From a virus, in the IMG/VR virus record IMGVR_UViG_3300030101_001464, positions 1-21,186 of that record: a stretch of DNA of 21,186 nucleotides, one strand, 5' to 3'. Shown piece by piece: positions 11,698 through 18,729 of the stretch. Numbering within the stretch: position 1 is the stretch's first letter; every line of letters starts with the position of its first letter. Under the pieces are notes generated by a model. That model made no database searches, was not told the DNA's origin, and was given only the letters and a program-made list of their open reading frames with translations. The position numbers and the translations under genes are program-made.

Positions 11698-13854
11698 ATG
11701 AATTTAGATTTAGTAAAATTAAGCCACTATAACATACCTCATTTAGTAGAAGATACTAAGAATGACTGGGTAAATTTCGGACAAGATAACTTATACCCTA
11801 ACTATCTACTAGAACTATTCTTAGGAAGTGCTATTAATGGTGCTTTAGTTAAGTCAATAGGTGCTATGATATATGGCGAAGGATTAGCTGCTACCAATGC
11901 AGATGACAACACAGACACAAAAGAATCTTATTTGCGACTTACAGAGCTTTTACATAATTCTGATGATGATGTATTAAAAGACCTAGCGATGGACTTAAAG
12001 CTATTTGGAGGGTGTTATGTTAATGTCATTTGGTCTAGGGATAGAAGTAAGATAGCTAAAATGTTACATATTCCTGCTCAATATATCCGTAGTGGTAAAA
12101 TGATAGACGGAGAAATAAGACACTACTACTACTCTGCTGATTGGTCTAAAACAAGAAAAGCAGAATACAAACCAAGAGCATATCCTGCATTTAATACAGA
12201 AGATAGAACACAAGCTAGTCAGATTTTAATGATTAGAGATAAAAACCCTGCTTTATTCTATGGCTTTGCTCCTGATTATGTAGCTGCTACTGACTGGATT
12301 CAAATGGAATTAGAGATTGCTCAGTTTCATTTATCTAATATAACGTCAGGAATGACTCCTAGTATGCACGTTGGATTCTCTAACGGTATACCTACTGAAG
12401 AAGAAAGAAGAACTATAGAAAGACAATTAAACGCTAAATTTGCAGGTAGTGGTAATGCAGGTAAAATACTTATTACTTTTAATGACGGTAAAGAAACTGC
12501 ACCTGTTATAGAACCTATCCAAATGAATGACGCTCAGTCAGCTTGGGAGGGTATGAGTAAACAAGCCGTTAATCAAATCTTAGCAGGACATAGAGTTACA
12601 TCACCAATCCTTTTTGGAATACGTGGAGAAGGTGGTGGACTTGGTAATAATGCTGACGAACTGAGGGATGCATATTCATTATTTAATAATTCAATCATCA
12701 TTCCCTTCCAGAATACGCTTTTAAAGGGTTTAGAGAAGATATTTAGAGTTAATGACATAAACCTTGATTTGTACTTTAAATCGCTTAAACCTGCTGATTT
12801 CATTGATTTAGAAGTTACTAAGACACAATCTGAAGAAGACCAAGAAAAAGAAGGTGTTACAAAAGAAGATATAAATACAGAAGAATTAAAACACGAATTT
12901 AAAGACTTACAAGACATAGACACTAAACCTACAGGTGGTATGGTAGAAGAAGCTATAAAAGGTTTAGAATGGCGAAGAGAATATGGCAGAGGAGGGACTC
13001 AGGTAGCTGTCGCAAGAGCCACAAACATAAAAAACGGTGACAATCTTAGTTTAGACACTATCTCTCGTATGAACAGTTTTTTTGCAAGGCACGAAGTAGA
13101 TAAACAAGCTGAAGGTTTTTATCCTGGAGAAGAAGGATATCCAAGTGCAGGTAGAATAGCTTGGGCATTATGGGGAGGCGATGCAGGACAAAGTTGGGCA
13201 AAAAAAAAAGTTAAAGAAATAGAGGGCGTTAGAGCTGACTTATCAGATGACGAATTTGACGATGTATTTAACGCTTTAAAAGGAGAAAAGATAGATTTAG
13301 ATGAATGGGAAGTAGTAGATGAGCAAGATTATGTAGATGACTACGAGGATTGGGCAGATACATTTATAATGCCTAAAGAAAAAAAAGAGTTTGCAGATGA
13401 AATATCAGCAAAACCTGACGGATTTAGTTATTTAGATAAATCATATTATAAAATACGATTTAAGTATTTTAAAAAGAGTAAAAGAACAACTAAAACAGGA
13501 ACATCAAGATTGTTTTGTAGAAATATGATGAGATTATCAGGAGAAGGAACTGTATATAGATTAGAAGATATTGACGCAGCTAGTAGAGCAGGTGTTAATA
13601 AACAACTAGGACATAAAGGTAGAAAGTATGACCTTTTCAAGTTCAAAGGAGGAGTTTGGTGTACTCACGCCTGGAAGATAGTTTTATATCGCCTTAAAGC
13701 AGGTAGTGAGCTAAAAGAAGGACAGGGATTAGATGACTATAAAAAAACATCATCAATACCTAAAACTTACGAGCCAAAACCAAGAGGAATAAAGGACGCA
13801 GTTCAAGCAGCAAACGCAAGTAATAATTGGTGGAAATATCCAGGTAGAAAATAA
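11698..13854 (+). CDS. portal protein with two additional C-terminal domains (718 aa)
   Basis: Residues 1 to about 385 are a portal: VNFGQDNLYPNYLLELF near the start, an N-terminal helical wing (LKDLAMDLKLFGGCYVNVIW), the strand IRSGKMIDGEIRHYYYSADW, the stem-like helix region QMELEIAQFHLSNITSGMTP and the crown-side block ILAGHRVTSPILFGIRGEGG. An acidic linker follows. Residues about 420-511 form a second domain with WRREYGRGGTQVAVARA, TISRMNSFFARHEVDKQ and GYPSAGRIAWALWGGDAG, known to me from marine phage protease or portal fusions. After another acidic linker, residues about 573-690 form a third domain with LFC (Cys607), YRLEDID, and KGGVWCTHAW (Cys655, His657). Portals are usually 400-550 residues. 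It lies downstream of the capsid gene, which is unusual. The functions of both appended domains are unknown. Confidence 0.88.
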   Translation: MNLDLVKLSHYNIPHLVEDTKNDWVNFGQDNLYPNYLLELFLGSAINGALVKSIGAMIYGEGLAATNADDNTDTKESYLRLTELLHNSDDDVLKDLAMDLKLFGGCYVNVIWSRDRSKIAKMLHIPAQYIRSGKMIDGEIRHYYYSADWSKTRKAEYKPRAYPAFNTEDRTQASQILMIRDKNPALFYGFAPDYVAATDWIQMELEIAQFHLSNITSGMTPSMHVGFSNGIPTEEERRTIERQLNAKFAGSGNAGKILITFNDGKETAPVIEPIQMNDAQSAWEGMSKQAVNQILAGHRVTSPILFGIRGEGGGLGNNADELRDAYSLFNNSIIIPFQNTLLKGLEKIFRVNDINLDLYFKSLKPADFIDLEVTKTQSEEDQEKEGVTKEDINTEELKHEFKDLQDIDTKPTGGMVEEAIKGLEWRREYGRGGTQVAVARATNIKNGDNLSLDTISRMNSFFARHEVDKQAEGFYPGEEGYPSAGRIAWALWGGDAGQSWAKKKVKEIEGVRADLSDDEFDDVFNALKGEKIDLDEWEVVDEQDYVDDYEDWADTFIMPKEKKEFADEISAKPDGFSYLDKSYYKIRFKYFKKSKRTTKTGTSRLFCRNMMRLSGEGTVYRLEDIDAASRAGVNKQLGHKGRKYDLFKFKGGVWCTHAWKIVLYRLKAGSELKEGQGLDDYKKTSSIPKTYEPKPRGIKDAVQAANASNNWWKYPGRK

Positions 13855-14836: not shown

Positions 14837-15361
14837 ATGGCAGGACAAAGATTAACCGACAAATCAGGACTAGCACAGCAACCAGCAAAGGATGATTTAT
14901 TAATGGTTGTAGATGCCTCAGATACAACTGGGTCAGCACAGGGAACAAGTAAAAGAATAGAAGCTAAAAATGTTATAGCTGTAGAGTCAGTTTCTCTATC
15001 TAATGCACAAGTTTTAGCACTACATACTACTCCTGTAGAGTTAATAGCTGCACCTGGTAGTGGTTTGGGCATTATGTTTCATAACATTTTAGTTGATGGT
15101 ATTTATGTTAGTAGCACAGAAACAAATAGACAAGCATTAGTATTTGCTTATGGAAATCCTAGTTTAAGTGGTGGCAATACGTTTGGTACTTTACACAGGT
15201 GGATGTTTGGTAGGACAGCTAGTAATACCAATAGTATATTTATGGAGCCTATATCGGGTGTTTATTTCGACAATCAACCTCTAAAGGTAAATTCAGACGG
15301 AGCTTTTTCTGCTGATTTTACTGCAGTTATACATATATCTTATACAATAATAAAACTATGA
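14837..15361 (+). CDS. fibre or decoration-like protein with DASDTTGSAQGTSK motif
   Basis: This 174-residue protein begins with MAGQRLTDKSGLAQQPAKDD followed by LLMVVDASDTTGSAQGTSKRI, a short N-terminal module I know from many phage fibre and decoration proteins, where D-x-S-D-T-T-x-S-x-x-G-T-S-K precedes a helix. Residues about 60-174 form a compact beta domain (VELIAAPGSGLGIMFHNILV ... VYFDNQPLKVNSDGAFSADF), similar in design to small trimeric head-fibre or tail-fibre tips. No signal peptide. A 68-base gap with runs of A and T precedes it (LD not a motif match to the conserved element). Its stop overlaps the start of the next gene (ATGA). Whether it decorates head or tail cannot be told from sequence. 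Confidence 0.6.
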   Translation: MAGQRLTDKSGLAQQPAKDDLLMVVDASDTTGSAQGTSKRIEAKNVIAVESVSLSNAQVLALHTTPVELIAAPGSGLGIMFHNILVDGIYVSSTETNRQALVFAYGNPSLSGGNTFGTLHRWMFGRTASNTNSIFMEPISGVYFDNQPLKVNSDGAFSADFTAVIHISYTIIKL

Positions 15362-16374
15362 TAAAATATCTATTCTTATTATTACCTTTTTTAACCTTTA
15401 GTCAAGGTGGCTTTTTTAAGTATTCTACATTTTATACTTCTATGAGTATGAATACTTCTATGATAGAATCAGAAGATTATCAAGCAATCGCTAAAGGGTA
15501 TCAAGATATAACACAAGTAAATCCTTATGACTATAACCTAACTATTGGTATTCGTAAGATTGCTAGATTTGATTATGAGTATAAAGTAAAAACCTGGTAT
15601 TATGGAACTGAAAAAGCTGTTGCAGATAATGTTACTATTGGTAATTCTAATGGTTGGGAGTATCTGCTTAATTATTCATTTATACGTAATCGTTCCGATA
15701 AGTTTACTGAGCAGAACTTTTGGCTTAGATATCTTGGAAACAGATGTGTAACTAAAATACAATATACTGACAATCAACGAGTAGATTTAAGGTACAATTC
15801 AATAGATTCTAGATATAGAATAAAAAAGGGCAATTTTGACTTTACTATTGGTGCTAATTTTAGGATGCATGACCCCTATGGCATAAATCCTATAGAAGAT
15901 TTCTGGATTCCTGGACAAACTTCTTTCCAACAATTAGCTTCAGATTTTGGATATTCTAGCCAATTTGTTAATGGCAGATGGCACTGGTATAAAGAGGGCG
16001 AAGTGATAGCAACGTCAAATGATGAGTTCTACAAGCATTATTTTGGTCAAGCTATAGCGGAGTTCAACGAAAGAGAGTTAGATGCTCTAGGCTCACAAAA
16101 TGAGCTTTCTGCTGTGTTTGGAGTGGCTTACTATAGCTACAATCCTAAGTTTTGGTTACATATATGGGCAAATGTAATGCCTTTTCACTATGGGTTAGAT
16201 GATTATTCCTTTGAGTATGGAGATGGCTTAAATAAGCTAGATTGGGATTCAGGAATGATATTAGGTTATAGAGTCACAAAACATTTAGGAGTATTTATAG
16301 AAGGGACTCATCAAAGATATTGGAATAAGCCATTATACGAGTCCAAATTTGGCTTTAATTATTTAGTATTTTAA
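15358..16374 (+). CDS. exported beta-barrel protein, predicted outer membrane
   Basis: The first 16-18 residues are a signal peptide (MIKYLFLLLPFLTFSQ) with the F-S-Q ending usual in Flavobacteriia. The remaining 320 residues alternate polar and aromatic residues in short strands (YNLTIGIRKIARFDYEYKVK, WEYLLNYSFIRN, FDFTIGANFRMH, LSAVFGVAYYSYNPKFWLHI, MILGYRVTKHLGVFIEGTHQ) and end in strand FGFNYLVF with a C-terminal Phe, the classic signal for the BAM complex. It has few Cys and no catalytic motif seen. It overlaps the fibre-like gene by four bases and is followed within two bases by another exported protein. A phage-made outer membrane protein could mask the receptor or block superinfection, which is inference. 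An alternative is a virion protein with a misleading hydrophobic N-terminus. Confidence 0.6.
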   Translation: MIKYLFLLLPFLTFSQGGFFKYSTFYTSMSMNTSMIESEDYQAIAKGYQDITQVNPYDYNLTIGIRKIARFDYEYKVKTWYYGTEKAVADNVTIGNSNGWEYLLNYSFIRNRSDKFTEQNFWLRYLGNRCVTKIQYTDNQRVDLRYNSIDSRYRIKKGNFDFTIGANFRMHDPYGINPIEDFWIPGQTSFQQLASDFGYSSQFVNGRWHWYKEGEVIATSNDEFYKHYFGQAIAEFNERELDALGSQNELSAVFGVAYYSYNPKFWLHIWANVMPFHYGLDDYSFEYGDGLNKLDWDSGMILGYRVTKHLGVFIEGTHQRYWNKPLYESKFGFNYLVF

Positions 16375-16376
16375 GT

Positions 16377-17057
16377 ATGAAAAAATTAGTATTATTATTT
16401 TTATTATTATCAAGTTATGCGTTTAGTCAATCAAATTGTGAATTATGTGCCGAGCAAGGTGGTTTCTATTGTGGAGATGATGAAAGCAACTGGACTTCTT
16501 ATAGTCCACTTGGTTGCGTCCCTAATGGTCTTAATGGTGTATTTTACCTTAATGACGGTTGGAGTGATTGTGTTGATGGTTCAGATGAAAATGGCTCAGA
16601 TGCTACAACAATAGGAGATTGTAATGCCTATGGAGAAACTTGTGATACTGTATTTGTAGAGATTCCTATAATACAATATGAAATAATTTTTGATACAATA
16701 ATACAGACAGAATATCTAACTCAAATCGTAATAGATACGCTAGAGATAGAAACACTTGTGCCTGAATATATATATATAACTGATACGGTTTATGCAGAAG
16801 TGCTAGACACTATGTACGTAGATGTAATAGAATATGTTGATACTATTGTGTATGATACAGTAGTTGAAATAGAATACGTTGAGTTTATAATAACTGAGTA
16901 TTTGGACTGCCTTACAGGGTTGCCATGCAATACAGCTATTATAGAACTTGACAAGAGTAAATTAAATAATAACCTATATAATCTTATGGGTAATGAAATT
17001 AGAAAGCCAAATGGGATTTATATAGAAAATGGTGAAATCAAATTTAAAATAGATTAA
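16377..17057 (+). CDS. secreted LDLa-like protein with DT repeats and T9SS-like C-terminus
   Basis: Residues 1-18 are a signal peptide (MKKLVLLFLLLSSYAFSQ). Residues about 20-85 hold C-x2-C, G-G-F-Y-C-G-D-D, G-C-V-P-N and DGWSDCVDGSDE with a later Cys, resembling an LDL-receptor class A domain, a small disulfide and calcium binding fold. Residues about 88-180 are a beta-prone stalk in which D-T-[VILM] recurs seven times, almost without Lys or Arg. After a Cys pair (LDCLTGLPC), the last 30 residues (LYNLMGNEIRKPNGIYIENG, then EIKFKID) resemble a type A sorting domain of the type IX secretion system, whose usual form is Y-N-x-x-G-x-x-[VI] ... G-[VI]-Y-[IV]. This implies export across both membranes and attachment at the cell surface. 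It directly follows the beta-barrel gene. Function unknown. Confidence 0.65.
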   Translation: MKKLVLLFLLLSSYAFSQSNCELCAEQGGFYCGDDESNWTSYSPLGCVPNGLNGVFYLNDGWSDCVDGSDENGSDATTIGDCNAYGETCDTVFVEIPIIQYEIIFDTIIQTEYLTQIVIDTLEIETLVPEYIYITDTVYAEVLDTMYVDVIEYVDTIVYDTVVEIEYVEFIITEYLDCLTGLPCNTAIIELDKSKLNNNLYNLMGNEIRKPNGIYIENGEIKFKID

Positions 17058-17059
17058 AT

Positions 17060-17242
17060 ATGGAAATTGTAAAAAAAATCACAGCAAGTAAAAAATTTTG
17101 GTATGCTTTTGGAACATTAGCTTTATTGCTTTTTTCTGATAGCATAGGAATAAACGACCAAGAAGTAAATAACATAATCATATTAGCTTTAGGTCTTATA
17201 GTAGCTCAAGGATTAGCAGACCGTAAAGATTGTAAGAGATGA
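17060..17242 (+). CDS. small two-helix membrane protein, possible holin (60 aa)
   Basis: A 60-residue protein with two hydrophobic segments, FWYAFGTLALLLFSDSIGI (about residues 13-31) and VNNIIILALGLIVAQGLA (about 36-53), separated by a short polar turn, a basic N-terminus (EIVKKITASKK) and a basic C-terminus (DRKDCKR). This is the form of small class II holins. It is the first gene of a cluster that includes an endolysin and a second holin candidate. It overlaps the next gene by four bases (ATGA). The product may be a holin, an antiholin, or another membrane protein; context gives moderate support. Confidence 0.55.
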   Translation: MEIVKKITASKKFWYAFGTLALLLFSDSIGINDQEVNNIIILALGLIVAQGLADRKDCKR

Positions 17243-17517
17243 AAATAAGCGAAAAGTCGGAATTAACTTTAGATTTAAAAACGATTGGTATAGTAATAGC
17301 TATGGCAGTATCAGTATCAGGTAGCTATTTTACTCTTAAAGCAGATATTGAAGAAAACAAAAAAGCTCTTGAAAAGGGCAACTGGGTAAATGCTAAAGAA
17401 TACGAACTTAAAGATGAATTGGTGCGTACTACTATAATGGGCAATAGTAAAAAGTTAGATGCTATAGAAGATAAATTAAATACTATAGACAGCCGACTTT
17501 ATAACTTAAAAAAGTAA
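17239..17517 (+). CDS. membrane-anchored coiled-coil protein, spanin-like
   Basis: A 92-residue protein with one membrane segment near the N-terminus (TIGIVIAMAVSVSGSYFTL, about residues 16-34) after a short charged start (MKISEKSELTLDLK), followed by a charged coiled coil (KADIEENKKALEKGNWV, KKLDAIEDKLNTIDSRLYNL). The architecture, N-terminal anchor plus periplasmic coiled coil, is that of inner-membrane spanins (Rz type), which fuse inner and outer membranes in the last step of lysis. No matching outer-membrane lipoprotein gene (Rz1 type) was found overlapping it. Haemolysin XhlA-type proteins have the opposite order (coil then membrane). The spanin label is an inference. Confidence 0.5.
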   Translation: MKISEKSELTLDLKTIGIVIAMAVSVSGSYFTLKADIEENKKALEKGNWVNAKEYELKDELVRTTIMGNSKKLDAIEDKLNTIDSRLYNLKK

Positions 17518-17519
17518 CT

Positions 17520-17861
17520 ATGAATTTAGGTTACATATTACAAATCTTAATAGCATTATTCTTTTTTGCTGTAGGTTTGTGTGTGTCGCAAGTATCAGTG
17601 ATTCATTTCAATAGTGAATGGAACGCAGAAAATAGCTTTAATATAGACGAGCTAAATGACTGTGAAAAATCAGACGTGATTATATGCCACAGTCCTGAAC
17701 TAAAAGACAAACACAAAATCCTTTCTGTTCCTACTATTATTATATTTGACAACGGTAATGAGATTACTAGATTTGAAGCTAATATAATGATGCAGTTAGA
17801 AGCAACAAGAAAGGAAATACAAAAAGAAATAGAGAAGATTCACTTAGCTAAATTTGAATGA
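17520..17861 (+). CDS. membrane-anchored thioredoxin-like protein lacking CxxC
   Basis: Residues about 4-23 are a hydrophobic anchor or signal (GYILQILIALFFFAVGLCV). The following 65 residues have the thioredoxin fold pattern: VIHFNSEWNAEN (strand beta1, then the active-site position), a beta2 strand with DVIICHSPEL, LKDKHKILSVPTIIIFDNGN with the conserved cis-Pro (Pro71) and the beta-strand end, and RFEANI. Where thioredoxins have W-C-x-x-C, this has W34-N35-A-E-N38, so both catalytic cysteines are replaced by Asn and redox activity is not expected. A charged helix ends the protein (LEATRKEIQKEIEKI). It lies between spanin-like and endolysin genes and overlaps the latter by four bases. A binding or chaperone role is possible. 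Fold assigned by motif only. Confidence 0.6.
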   Translation: MNLGYILQILIALFFFAVGLCVSQVSVIHFNSEWNAENSFNIDELNDCEKSDVIICHSPELKDKHKILSVPTIIIFDNGNEITRFEANIMMQLEATRKEIQKEIEKIHLAKFE

Positions 17862-18355
17862 AATTATCAAAAAACTTTACACTACAAGAGCTAATAAAAT
17901 CTAACACAGCATTAAGATTAGGAATAGATAACACGCCCTCTAAAGAGGGAATAATGAAACTGACTATATTAGCCACTTCAGTCCTCCAGTTACTACGTGA
18001 CCGTATTGGAGCTTTGAGGATTACAAGTGGCTATAGGTCACCACAATTAAATACTGCTATTGGTGGTAGCAATAAATCACAGCATACTAAATGCGAAGCA
18101 GTAGATATTCAATACGTCAAAAGAGGACGTATGGATAACCTAATGATATACCAAGCACTAATAGATTTAGATATTGACTTCGACCAATGTATATTGGAAT
18201 TTGGGGATAGCACAGCAACAAGCGACCCTACTAGTCCTGCTTGGATTCATTTAAGCTATAAAATAACTAACAATAGAAGGCAGGTATTAGTAGCTTATAA
18301 AGATGATAATAACAAAACAAAATACAGACCTTTAATTAAATACAATTCTATATGA
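17858..18355 (+). CDS. peptidase M15 endolysin (L-Ala-D-Glu / D-Ala-D-Ala type)
   Basis: The enzyme hydrolyses peptide bonds of peptidoglycan stems to release progeny. It begins with LSKNFTLQELIKSNTA, the usual start of the M15_3 subfamily, in which F-T-x-x-E-[LFM] is conserved. Zinc ligands and catalytic residues are visible: ITSGYRSPQLN at about 55-65, SQHTKCEAVDI with His76 and Asp83, Glu114 in ILEFGD, and WIHLSY with His131. The length of 165 residues is the family norm. It has no signal peptide and would reach the wall through a holin. It overlaps the genes on both sides by four bases, placing it in the centre of the lysis cluster. The exact bond cut is not determined by sequence. Confidence 0.9.
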   Translation: MKLSKNFTLQELIKSNTALRLGIDNTPSKEGIMKLTILATSVLQLLRDRIGALRITSGYRSPQLNTAIGGSNKSQHTKCEAVDIQYVKRGRMDNLMIYQALIDLDIDFDQCILEFGDSTATSDPTSPAWIHLSYKITNNRRQVLVAYKDDNNKTKYRPLIKYNSI

Positions 18356-18729
18356 AATTCTTAAGCAAACTATTTGGCAATATGTCTTTAGATGTTAATA
18401 AACTTGTTGATAATGTTGTAACTACTGACGAAGAACGTAAAGAATTAAAAATTAAATTTGAACAAATCTTCCTTGAAGCTAGAGCAAATGCAGAAGAACA
18501 AATAACTAGAAGATGGGAAGCAGATTCAAAAGCAGGGTGGCTACCTGCTAACATCAGACCTTTAACACTAGCTTTTTTAGTAGTATCTACTGTACTGCTA
18601 ATTTTTATTGAAGGTGGAGTTATAGATTTTCAAGTTAAAGATACTTGGATAGACTTACTTCAATTAACATTAATAACGGTGATAGGAGCATACTTTGGAG
18701 GACGAAGTATAGAGAAGGTTAAAAAATAA
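18352..18729 (+). CDS. holin of the three-TM GTA-holin type
   Basis: This 125-residue protein probably forms the lesion that lets the endolysin out. Residues 1-55 are charged and helical. The conserved block RRWEADSKAGWLPANIRPLTL (about residues 52-73) shows R-W-x-A-D, then N-x-R-P-L, the family signature of GTA-type holins (family Holin_3TMs). Two hydrophobic helices follow: LAFLVVSTVLLIFIEGGVI (about 74-92) and LQLTLITVIGAYFGGRSIE (about 102-120). The C-terminus is KVKK. It directly follows the endolysin with a four-base overlap. Its stop TAA (18727) is preceded by a run of six A, and the next ORF overlaps in the +1 frame. Confidence 0.78.
   Translation: MKFLSKLFGNMSLDVNKLVDNVVTTDEERKELKIKFEQIFLEARANAEEQITRRWEADSKAGWLPANIRPLTLAFLVVSTVLLIFIEGGVIDFQVKDTWIDLLQLTLITVIGAYFGGRSIEKVKK

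Follow-up and report, generated by a model that had tools for sequence, protein, structure and literature searches.

The stretch of DNA analysed here (the window) is the whole of IMG/VR virus record IMGVR_UViG_3300030101_001464, 21,186 bases. Its late operon runs on the plus strand and comprises capsid and portal genes, further virion genes, an outer-membrane barrel gene, the gene under study, and genes for a holin-like protein, a transmembrane (TM)-coiled-coil protein, a thioredoxin-fold protein, an M15 endolysin and a small membrane protein. The gene under study lies exactly where the original prediction placed it and starts 2 bases past the barrel stop. We refer to its product as the cargo, for its putative export by the type IX secretion system (T9SS), and to the C-terminal domain of such a protein as its CTD. 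The features of the region are as follows.

15358..16374, + strand: phage outer-membrane beta-barrel with signal peptide, 338 aa (AF2 model)
16377..17057, + strand: putative T9SS cargo gene (226 aa) with signal peptide, LDLa-like head, DT stalk and short CTD
16377..16430, + strand: predicted Sec signal peptide at residues 1-18, with inferred cleavage following AFSQ
16437..16622, + strand: cysteine-rich LDLa-type head, residues 21-82, with the predicted calcium loop DGWSDCVDGSDE at residues 60-71
16641..16907, + strand: stalk with seven DT[VILM] motifs, residues 89-177
16908..16928, + strand: conserved CLTGLPC, residues 178-184 (family consensus CDTGLPC), common to host proteins
16929..17054, + strand: putative short T9SS C-terminal domain, residues 185-226
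17060..17242, + strand: small holin-like membrane protein with a weak PHROG match, present in a minority of homologous loci
17239..17517, + strand: protein with an N-terminal membrane segment and a coiled coil, 92 aa, conserved cassette member
17520..17861, + strand: secreted thioredoxin-fold protein without CxxC, 113 aa, conserved cassette member
17858..18355, + strand: M15-family endolysin, flanking
18352..18729, + strand: small holin-like membrane protein, flanking; one homolog, in L020, matches a PHROG holin

The nearest cultured phages by portal gene were the Nonlabens phages P12024S/L (34% identity), which infect a marine Flavobacteriaceae bacterium; this kinship points to a Bacteroidota host. 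P12024S itself has neither the barrel nor a CTD protein, and no close relative of the cargo or of the barrel was found among cultured phages. The portal ORF (11698-13854) carries a mobile module: its C-terminal segment, residues 386-513, shares up to 67% identity with portions of proteins from Roseobacter and Synechococcus phages whose annotation is portal or capsid. An Rfam search of the window gave no match, and a promoter scan gave matches that were not in excess of those in shuffled sequences.

Signal peptide, head and stalk of the cargo family

Searches of viral contigs returned 126 relatives of the cargo. Its members have a conserved head and a conserved tail, with a stalk between them that varies in length. 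As predicted, the window protein begins with a hydrophobic segment (MKKLVLLFLLLSSYAFSQ; hydrophobic maximum 3.2 over 9 residues), and so do all 118 family members compared. Signal peptides were called from this N-terminal hydrophobicity, and by this measure the N-terminus is the predicted Sec signal peptide that a short-CTD cargo should carry.

The original prediction described the cysteine-rich region as LDLa-like, and this held at the level of the family, with one cysteine missing and the window protein itself below the cut-off. Taken alone, the window protein matched the Pfam LDLa model at E = 0.098 (13.3 bits; gathering cut-off 24.1). Among 64 cargo homologs, 45 matched Ldl_recept_a at E ≤ 1 (best E = 7e-4), and when the family profile was compared with the PDB the top matches were LDLR class A modules (best E = 0.0049). 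The head shares with LDL-receptor class A modules (PF00057) the (W/Y)..DG..DC.DGSDE signature and the cysteine framework, of which it keeps five of six positions. It differs in having cysteines outside the framework and in the replacement of Cys IV by Asn59 in the window, so that the six cysteines in three disulfides of PF00057 are not all present and the head is best described as an LDLa variant.

In the 64 sequences the motif FYCGDD..NW and the head cysteines are nearly or fully invariant, as are D60, D64, D70 and E71. The last four are invariant in all 64 and form the pattern D-x3-D-x5-D-E, whose spacing we take to be that of the LDLa calcium ligands. The head is thus predicted to contain the acidic calcium cage of LDLa. 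Two bacterial proteins bridge the gap to canonical modules. In a Crocinitomicaceae protein (L155) the cargo-type head is present twice and the C-terminus is Por_Secre_tail, a full type A sorting domain; the module homologous to the cargo head scores 26.7 bits there and passes the LDLa cut-off of Pfam. In a Neomarinimicrobiota protein (L157) the cargo-type head has the fourth cysteine and is followed by canonical LDLa repeats. Judged by sequence, the matches of the homologs, the PDB matches of the profile and these two proteins together make a good family-level case for an LDLa-type head.

The predicted stalk, with its seven D-T-[VILM] motifs, was confirmed by counting. The motifs lie at residues 90, 106, 120, 136, 144, 155 and 160, while 5000 composition shuffles of the window protein gave a mean of 0.5 and a maximum of 4. 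Homologs carry 1-12 DT motifs. The AF2 model of the cargo had a pLDDT of 53 overall and below 50 in the stalk; at this low confidence a fold search with the model is meaningless, and we discarded it.

The C-terminal tail and its bacterial relatives

The C-terminus had been read as a type A sorting domain. Our data support a narrower reading: the tail matches bacterial short type A CTDs and is not a full type A domain. None of 64 family members matched TIGR04183 or PF18962 above the curated cut-off, and NCBIfam scans of the family gave no match to TIGR04131 (type B). The tail has the motif-B-like and C-terminal strands in common with the type A domain but lacks the first half of that Ig-like domain of 70-80 residues.

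Short CTDs have been described for T9SS cargo of Prevotella intermedia. They are 40-55 residues long, with motifs B, D and E and 1-6 residues from B to D, are predicted to form a single three-stranded sheet, and are cleaved and glycosylated (PMC11969387). The phage tail follows the same plan, with YNLMGNEI (motif-B-like), RKPN, GIYI (motif-D-like) and a C-terminal strand, EIKFKI. At 42 residues, with a B-to-D gap of 4 and three strands assigned by AF2 at modest confidence, it has the sequence features of a short CTD. Y201, G205, I208, Y215, I216 and G219 are conserved in at least 90% of members. Unlike the P. intermedia signals, the tail is phage-encoded and marine, and in most members it is one residue shorter before motif D.

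We compared the phage tail by HHalign with 23 real short CTDs, the C-terminal tails of proteins from one Bacteroidales family, and obtained a probability of 97.7 and a score of 47.2; 300 column-shuffled profiles scored 18.7 or less and the reversed profile 9.4. Against long CTDs the tail scored 21.4, with all shuffles at or below 17.1. Because the 23 tails had been gathered with a hand-written consensus, the searches were redone with the phage tail profile itself to remove this bias. On its own, the phage profile matched short CTDs in the same Bacteroidales family, in 29 of the 61 genomes searched (best E = 8.6e-8), and PorV was present in all four genomes of this family that were tested. Among 177,635 PDB sequences its best match lay at the very C-terminal end of an arabinanase (4kca, residues 654-679 of 692; E = 0.069). 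In 118 Bacteroidota genomes the tail profile gave 12 matches at E ≤ 0.1, with about 12 expected by chance, which suggests that short CTDs are confined to some clades.

In the reverse direction, a model of the bacterial short CTDs was run against 7,738 phage ORFs and matched 141 of 148 cargo homologs, at their C-termini, and the window protein at E = 6.6e-4. Besides cargo homologs, a single phage ORF fell below E = 0.1, and it encodes a signal-peptide protein beside a barrel gene. This protein (170 aa; L072:341-853) is the second signal-peptide protein of its locus, lies between barrel and cargo, and has a short-CTD-like tail of its own.

The original prediction counted a missing sorting-domain profile match as a refutation. 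In two Bacteroidales genomes, however, TIGR04183 found 15 and 7 cargos where the short-CTD query found 42 and 17, and this model is therefore largely blind to short CTDs. Since TIGR04183 and TIGR04131 miss these signals, such a test would have misfired here. The failure of the curated T9SS models could also be explained if the C-terminal likeness were convergent or decaying, the phage having inherited a host surface protein with a sorting signal that has lost its function. We regard this as very improbable, because conservation within the family extends to the tail, which the short-CTD profile recognises in nearly all homologs.

The stalk and tail also occur on bacterial chromosomes. The phage tail profile matched proteins in 4 of 196 Flavobacteriales genomes (E = 1e-15 to 1e-19), all of about 1-1.5 Mb. 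Three of the four proteins have a DT stalk, a CDTGLPC-like motif and a short CTD, and the fourth is a fragment. Their heads differ, being leucine-rich repeats, another repeat and an Ig-like region. The window protein and one of the chromosomal proteins aligned over stalk and tail at E = 9e-25. Neighbours of these genes, among them genes that we take to encode lysyl- and methionyl-tRNA synthetase, RseP and DXR, indicate that they sit on bacterial chromosomes. All seven genomes tested from this Flavobacteriales group contain PorV and dozens of TIGR04183 cargos. The stalk and tail being shared with T9SS-positive marine bacteria, we infer that the phage protein is an LDLa-type head placed on a stalk-and-sorting-signal module that such bacteria employ in proteins of their own. 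The secreted proteins of this kind in the Flavobacteriales genomes L245, L246 and L258, with swappable heads on a common DT stalk and short CTD, have no TIGR04183 match; from their sequences they are likely to represent an unannotated class of T9SS cargo in small marine genomes.

The barrel and its probable cargo in two phage groups

The original prediction placed the gene in a late operon beside an outer-membrane barrel gene, and the structural model bears this out. The AF2 model of the barrel (pLDDT 75) has about 12 strands, a large loop at residues 172-246 and a low-confidence N-terminal third. Its best match by VIA-align was Tsx (Z = 15.4, 189 residues, rmsd 3.8); the PorV/PorP fold was not seen among the structural matches listed. 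The barrel has no match in Pfam or NCBIfam, and a set of 31 barrels gave none to the PorV and PorP-SprF families there.

With the window barrel as query we found 118 relatives in viral contigs. Barrel and cargo genes lie on the same strand in 147 loci, where the cargo usually starts 2-5 bases past the barrel stop and otherwise lies within about 1 kb. In 88 of 99 loci, the genes for the TM-coiled-coil and thioredoxin-fold proteins are found downstream, at most 2.5 kb away. Among relatives of the thioredoxin-fold protein (window 17520-17861; L263:8498-8827), CxxC is missing in 106 of 107 and 66 of 66; an oxidoreductase role was therefore rejected, and the fold is probably used non-catalytically. 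The CxxC site is replaced by W-N-x-x-N, and the gene is kept beside the barrel across phage groups. Four loci (L054, L055, L113 and L143) have, between barrel and cargo, predicted lipoproteins of 53-63 aa with the lipobox CSGCSMLFN that are reminiscent of o-spanins. The 245-kb viral contig IMGVR_UViG_3300030098_004828 (L342, L344) carries the barrel gene twice, at sites separated by about 119 kb.

A second phage group came to light through bacterial genomes. The barrel occurred in one of 196 Flavobacteriales genomes, on a contig that also encodes tail sheath, tail tube and UvsX proteins and that we therefore assign to a contractile-tailed phage binned with a bacterium. On this contig, as in the window, the barrel is followed by TM-coiled-coil and thioredoxin-fold genes. 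The product of the gene adjoining the barrel is 994 residues long, begins with a signal peptide and has a type A sorting domain of textbook form (TIGR04183, 53.6 bits, cut-off 23; PF18962, 50.2 bits, cut-off 27). Relatives of this barrel in viral contigs number at least 541. Counting loci with a distinct barrel and sufficient flank, 46 of 49 had a long-CTD cargo (800-1400 aa), which lay within 20 bases of the barrel in 30 of the 46 and more than 2 kb away in one. Four of the 49 also carry a relative of the window protein. One barrel family is thus tied to two kinds of cargo in two phage groups. This is our strongest argument that the window gene encodes a T9SS cargo, and equally that barrel and cargo work together; the joint role that had been proposed gains support from the canonical type A cargo beside the second group's barrel.

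Frequent swapping of the module among phage backbones was considered and rejected: the barrel tree needs only three changes of backbone class, and inheritance has been mostly vertical, with few transfers.

Two other roles for the cargo have to be weighed. One possibility is that it is a virion protein, a tail-tip or fibre accessory whose stalk and head bind the host at adsorption. Its gene lies directly downstream of virion genes in the late operon, and its stalk-plus-head plan resembles a fibre. On the other hand, the Sec signal-like N-terminus of every member compared would take it out of the cytoplasm, the site of virion assembly; the stalk and tail recur in secreted proteins encoded on bacterial chromosomes; and the cassette occurs on phages with unrelated structural genes. 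We consider a virion role highly unlikely. Another possibility is that the cargo is a periplasmic or outer-membrane lysis accessory which, with the other cassette proteins, spans the envelope and disrupts the outer membrane, its tail docking to the barrel and not to the T9SS. The cassette abuts holin and endolysin genes, the TM-coiled-coil and thioredoxin-fold genes are its regular companions, and a few relatives have the o-spanin-like lipoproteins. This too is unlikely, as the tail matches signals of bacteria that lack the barrel (the single barrel among the Flavobacteriales genomes being on the phage contig) and the second group's cargo has a canonical sorting domain.

A putative surface-display cassette and its purpose

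The most likely explanation is that the window gene encodes the T9SS cargo of a cassette made up of the cargo, the outer-membrane barrel, the TM-coiled-coil protein and the secreted thioredoxin-fold protein without CxxC. Leaving its purpose aside, we think it probable that the window protein is a phage-encoded T9SS cargo that is exported to the cell surface with the barrel as its partner. Weighing against this are the failure of all curated T9SS models to match the window protein or its homologs, the rarity of the stalk-tail module (4 of 196 Flavobacteriales genomes), the barrel's dissimilarity in sequence to the PorV/PorP families and the low AF2 confidence for the cargo. The cargo would be exported by Sec, and its 42-residue short CTD would be recognised by the host translocon and a shuttle (PorV or an equivalent). 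It would then cross the outer membrane and be anchored, via either the host sortase route or the phage barrel. Once the cargo is anchored, its LDLa-type head, with the calcium loop, would stand clear of the surface, carried by a beta-rich DT stalk whose length varies. The barrel may act as the membrane partner of the cargo: it could be an anchor, a shuttle dedicated to the cargo, or a receptor displayed alongside it. The cassette would be completed by the TM-coiled-coil protein and the non-catalytic thioredoxin-fold protein.

The nearest functional parallel is provided by PorP/SprF barrels, which adjoin and anchor type B cargo (PMC9143113, PMC12618676). As with these shuttle-anchors, the gene of the phage barrel adjoins that of a T9SS cargo. 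The likeness would be one of working principle only and does not extend to sequence. The phage cargo is type A-like or short whereas that of PorP/SprF is type B, and the phage barrel is modelled with 12 strands and has no Pfam or NCBIfam match, whereas PorV and PorP are 14-stranded FadL-family barrels (PMC9143113). More speculatively, the phage barrel could serve the T9SS as a dedicated shuttle or anchor with no sequence kinship to PorV or PorP/SprF; together with its own cargo, either the short-CTD LDLa protein or a large long-CTD protein, and its TM-coiled-coil and thioredoxin-fold partners, it would make a viral secretion add-on. We put this forward tentatively. If true, it would be a self-contained viral addition to a host secretion system, found across unrelated lineages of tailed phages.

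As for purpose, cargo and barrel together probably alter the surface of the cell late in infection, when it is already doomed. A late position suits several roles: keeping progeny from being re-adsorbed, excluding superinfecting phage, making cells adhere to one another or assisting release. A rapidly varying arms-race tip is harder to reconcile with how strongly head and barrel are conserved. We rank first, as a possibility short of an even chance, that the pair blocks re-adsorption or superinfection by related phage. Sticking cells together or to particles is a more doubtful purpose, and helping to open the outer membrane at lysis is doubtful to a similar degree.

Display on the host by the T9SS had been proposed as a new route of surface change or adhesion. 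Bacterial stalk-tail proteins, short CTDs and the second phage group all support the display, but phage-encoded T9SS cargo as such is not new: earlier reports on Cryophage (PMC7468147) and on BACON-domain gut phages (PMC6949934) describe phage genes for proteins that bear T9SS sorting domains. Like the window phage, these carry phage genes with a T9SS sorting signal. According to the accessible text of these reports, the cargos are an endoglucanase, a GH39 protein, a PA14 protein or BACON ORFs (PMC7468147, PMC6949934), one ORF having both BACON and T9SS sorting domains (PMC6949934); unlike the window phage, they are not described there as having a short CTD, an LDLa head or a conserved cassette linked to a barrel. 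In the open-access literature we found no report of a barrel-linked cassette, of phage short CTDs or of phage LDLa heads, an absence there that does not amount to proof.

Hundreds of uncultured marine phage sequences have an outer-membrane barrel gene beside the gene of a protein that is probably exported by the host T9SS, and phages with this pair appear to redecorate the surface of the infected cell. If this is true, short T9SS signals may be more widespread than the single species reported so far suggests, and standard sorting-domain models would be shown to miss them. Hundreds of marine Bacteroidota phages would place proteins of their own on the cell via the host T9SS, with a conserved outer-membrane partner, and this would make it possible to test how the outer face of infected cells is managed by Bacteroidota phages.
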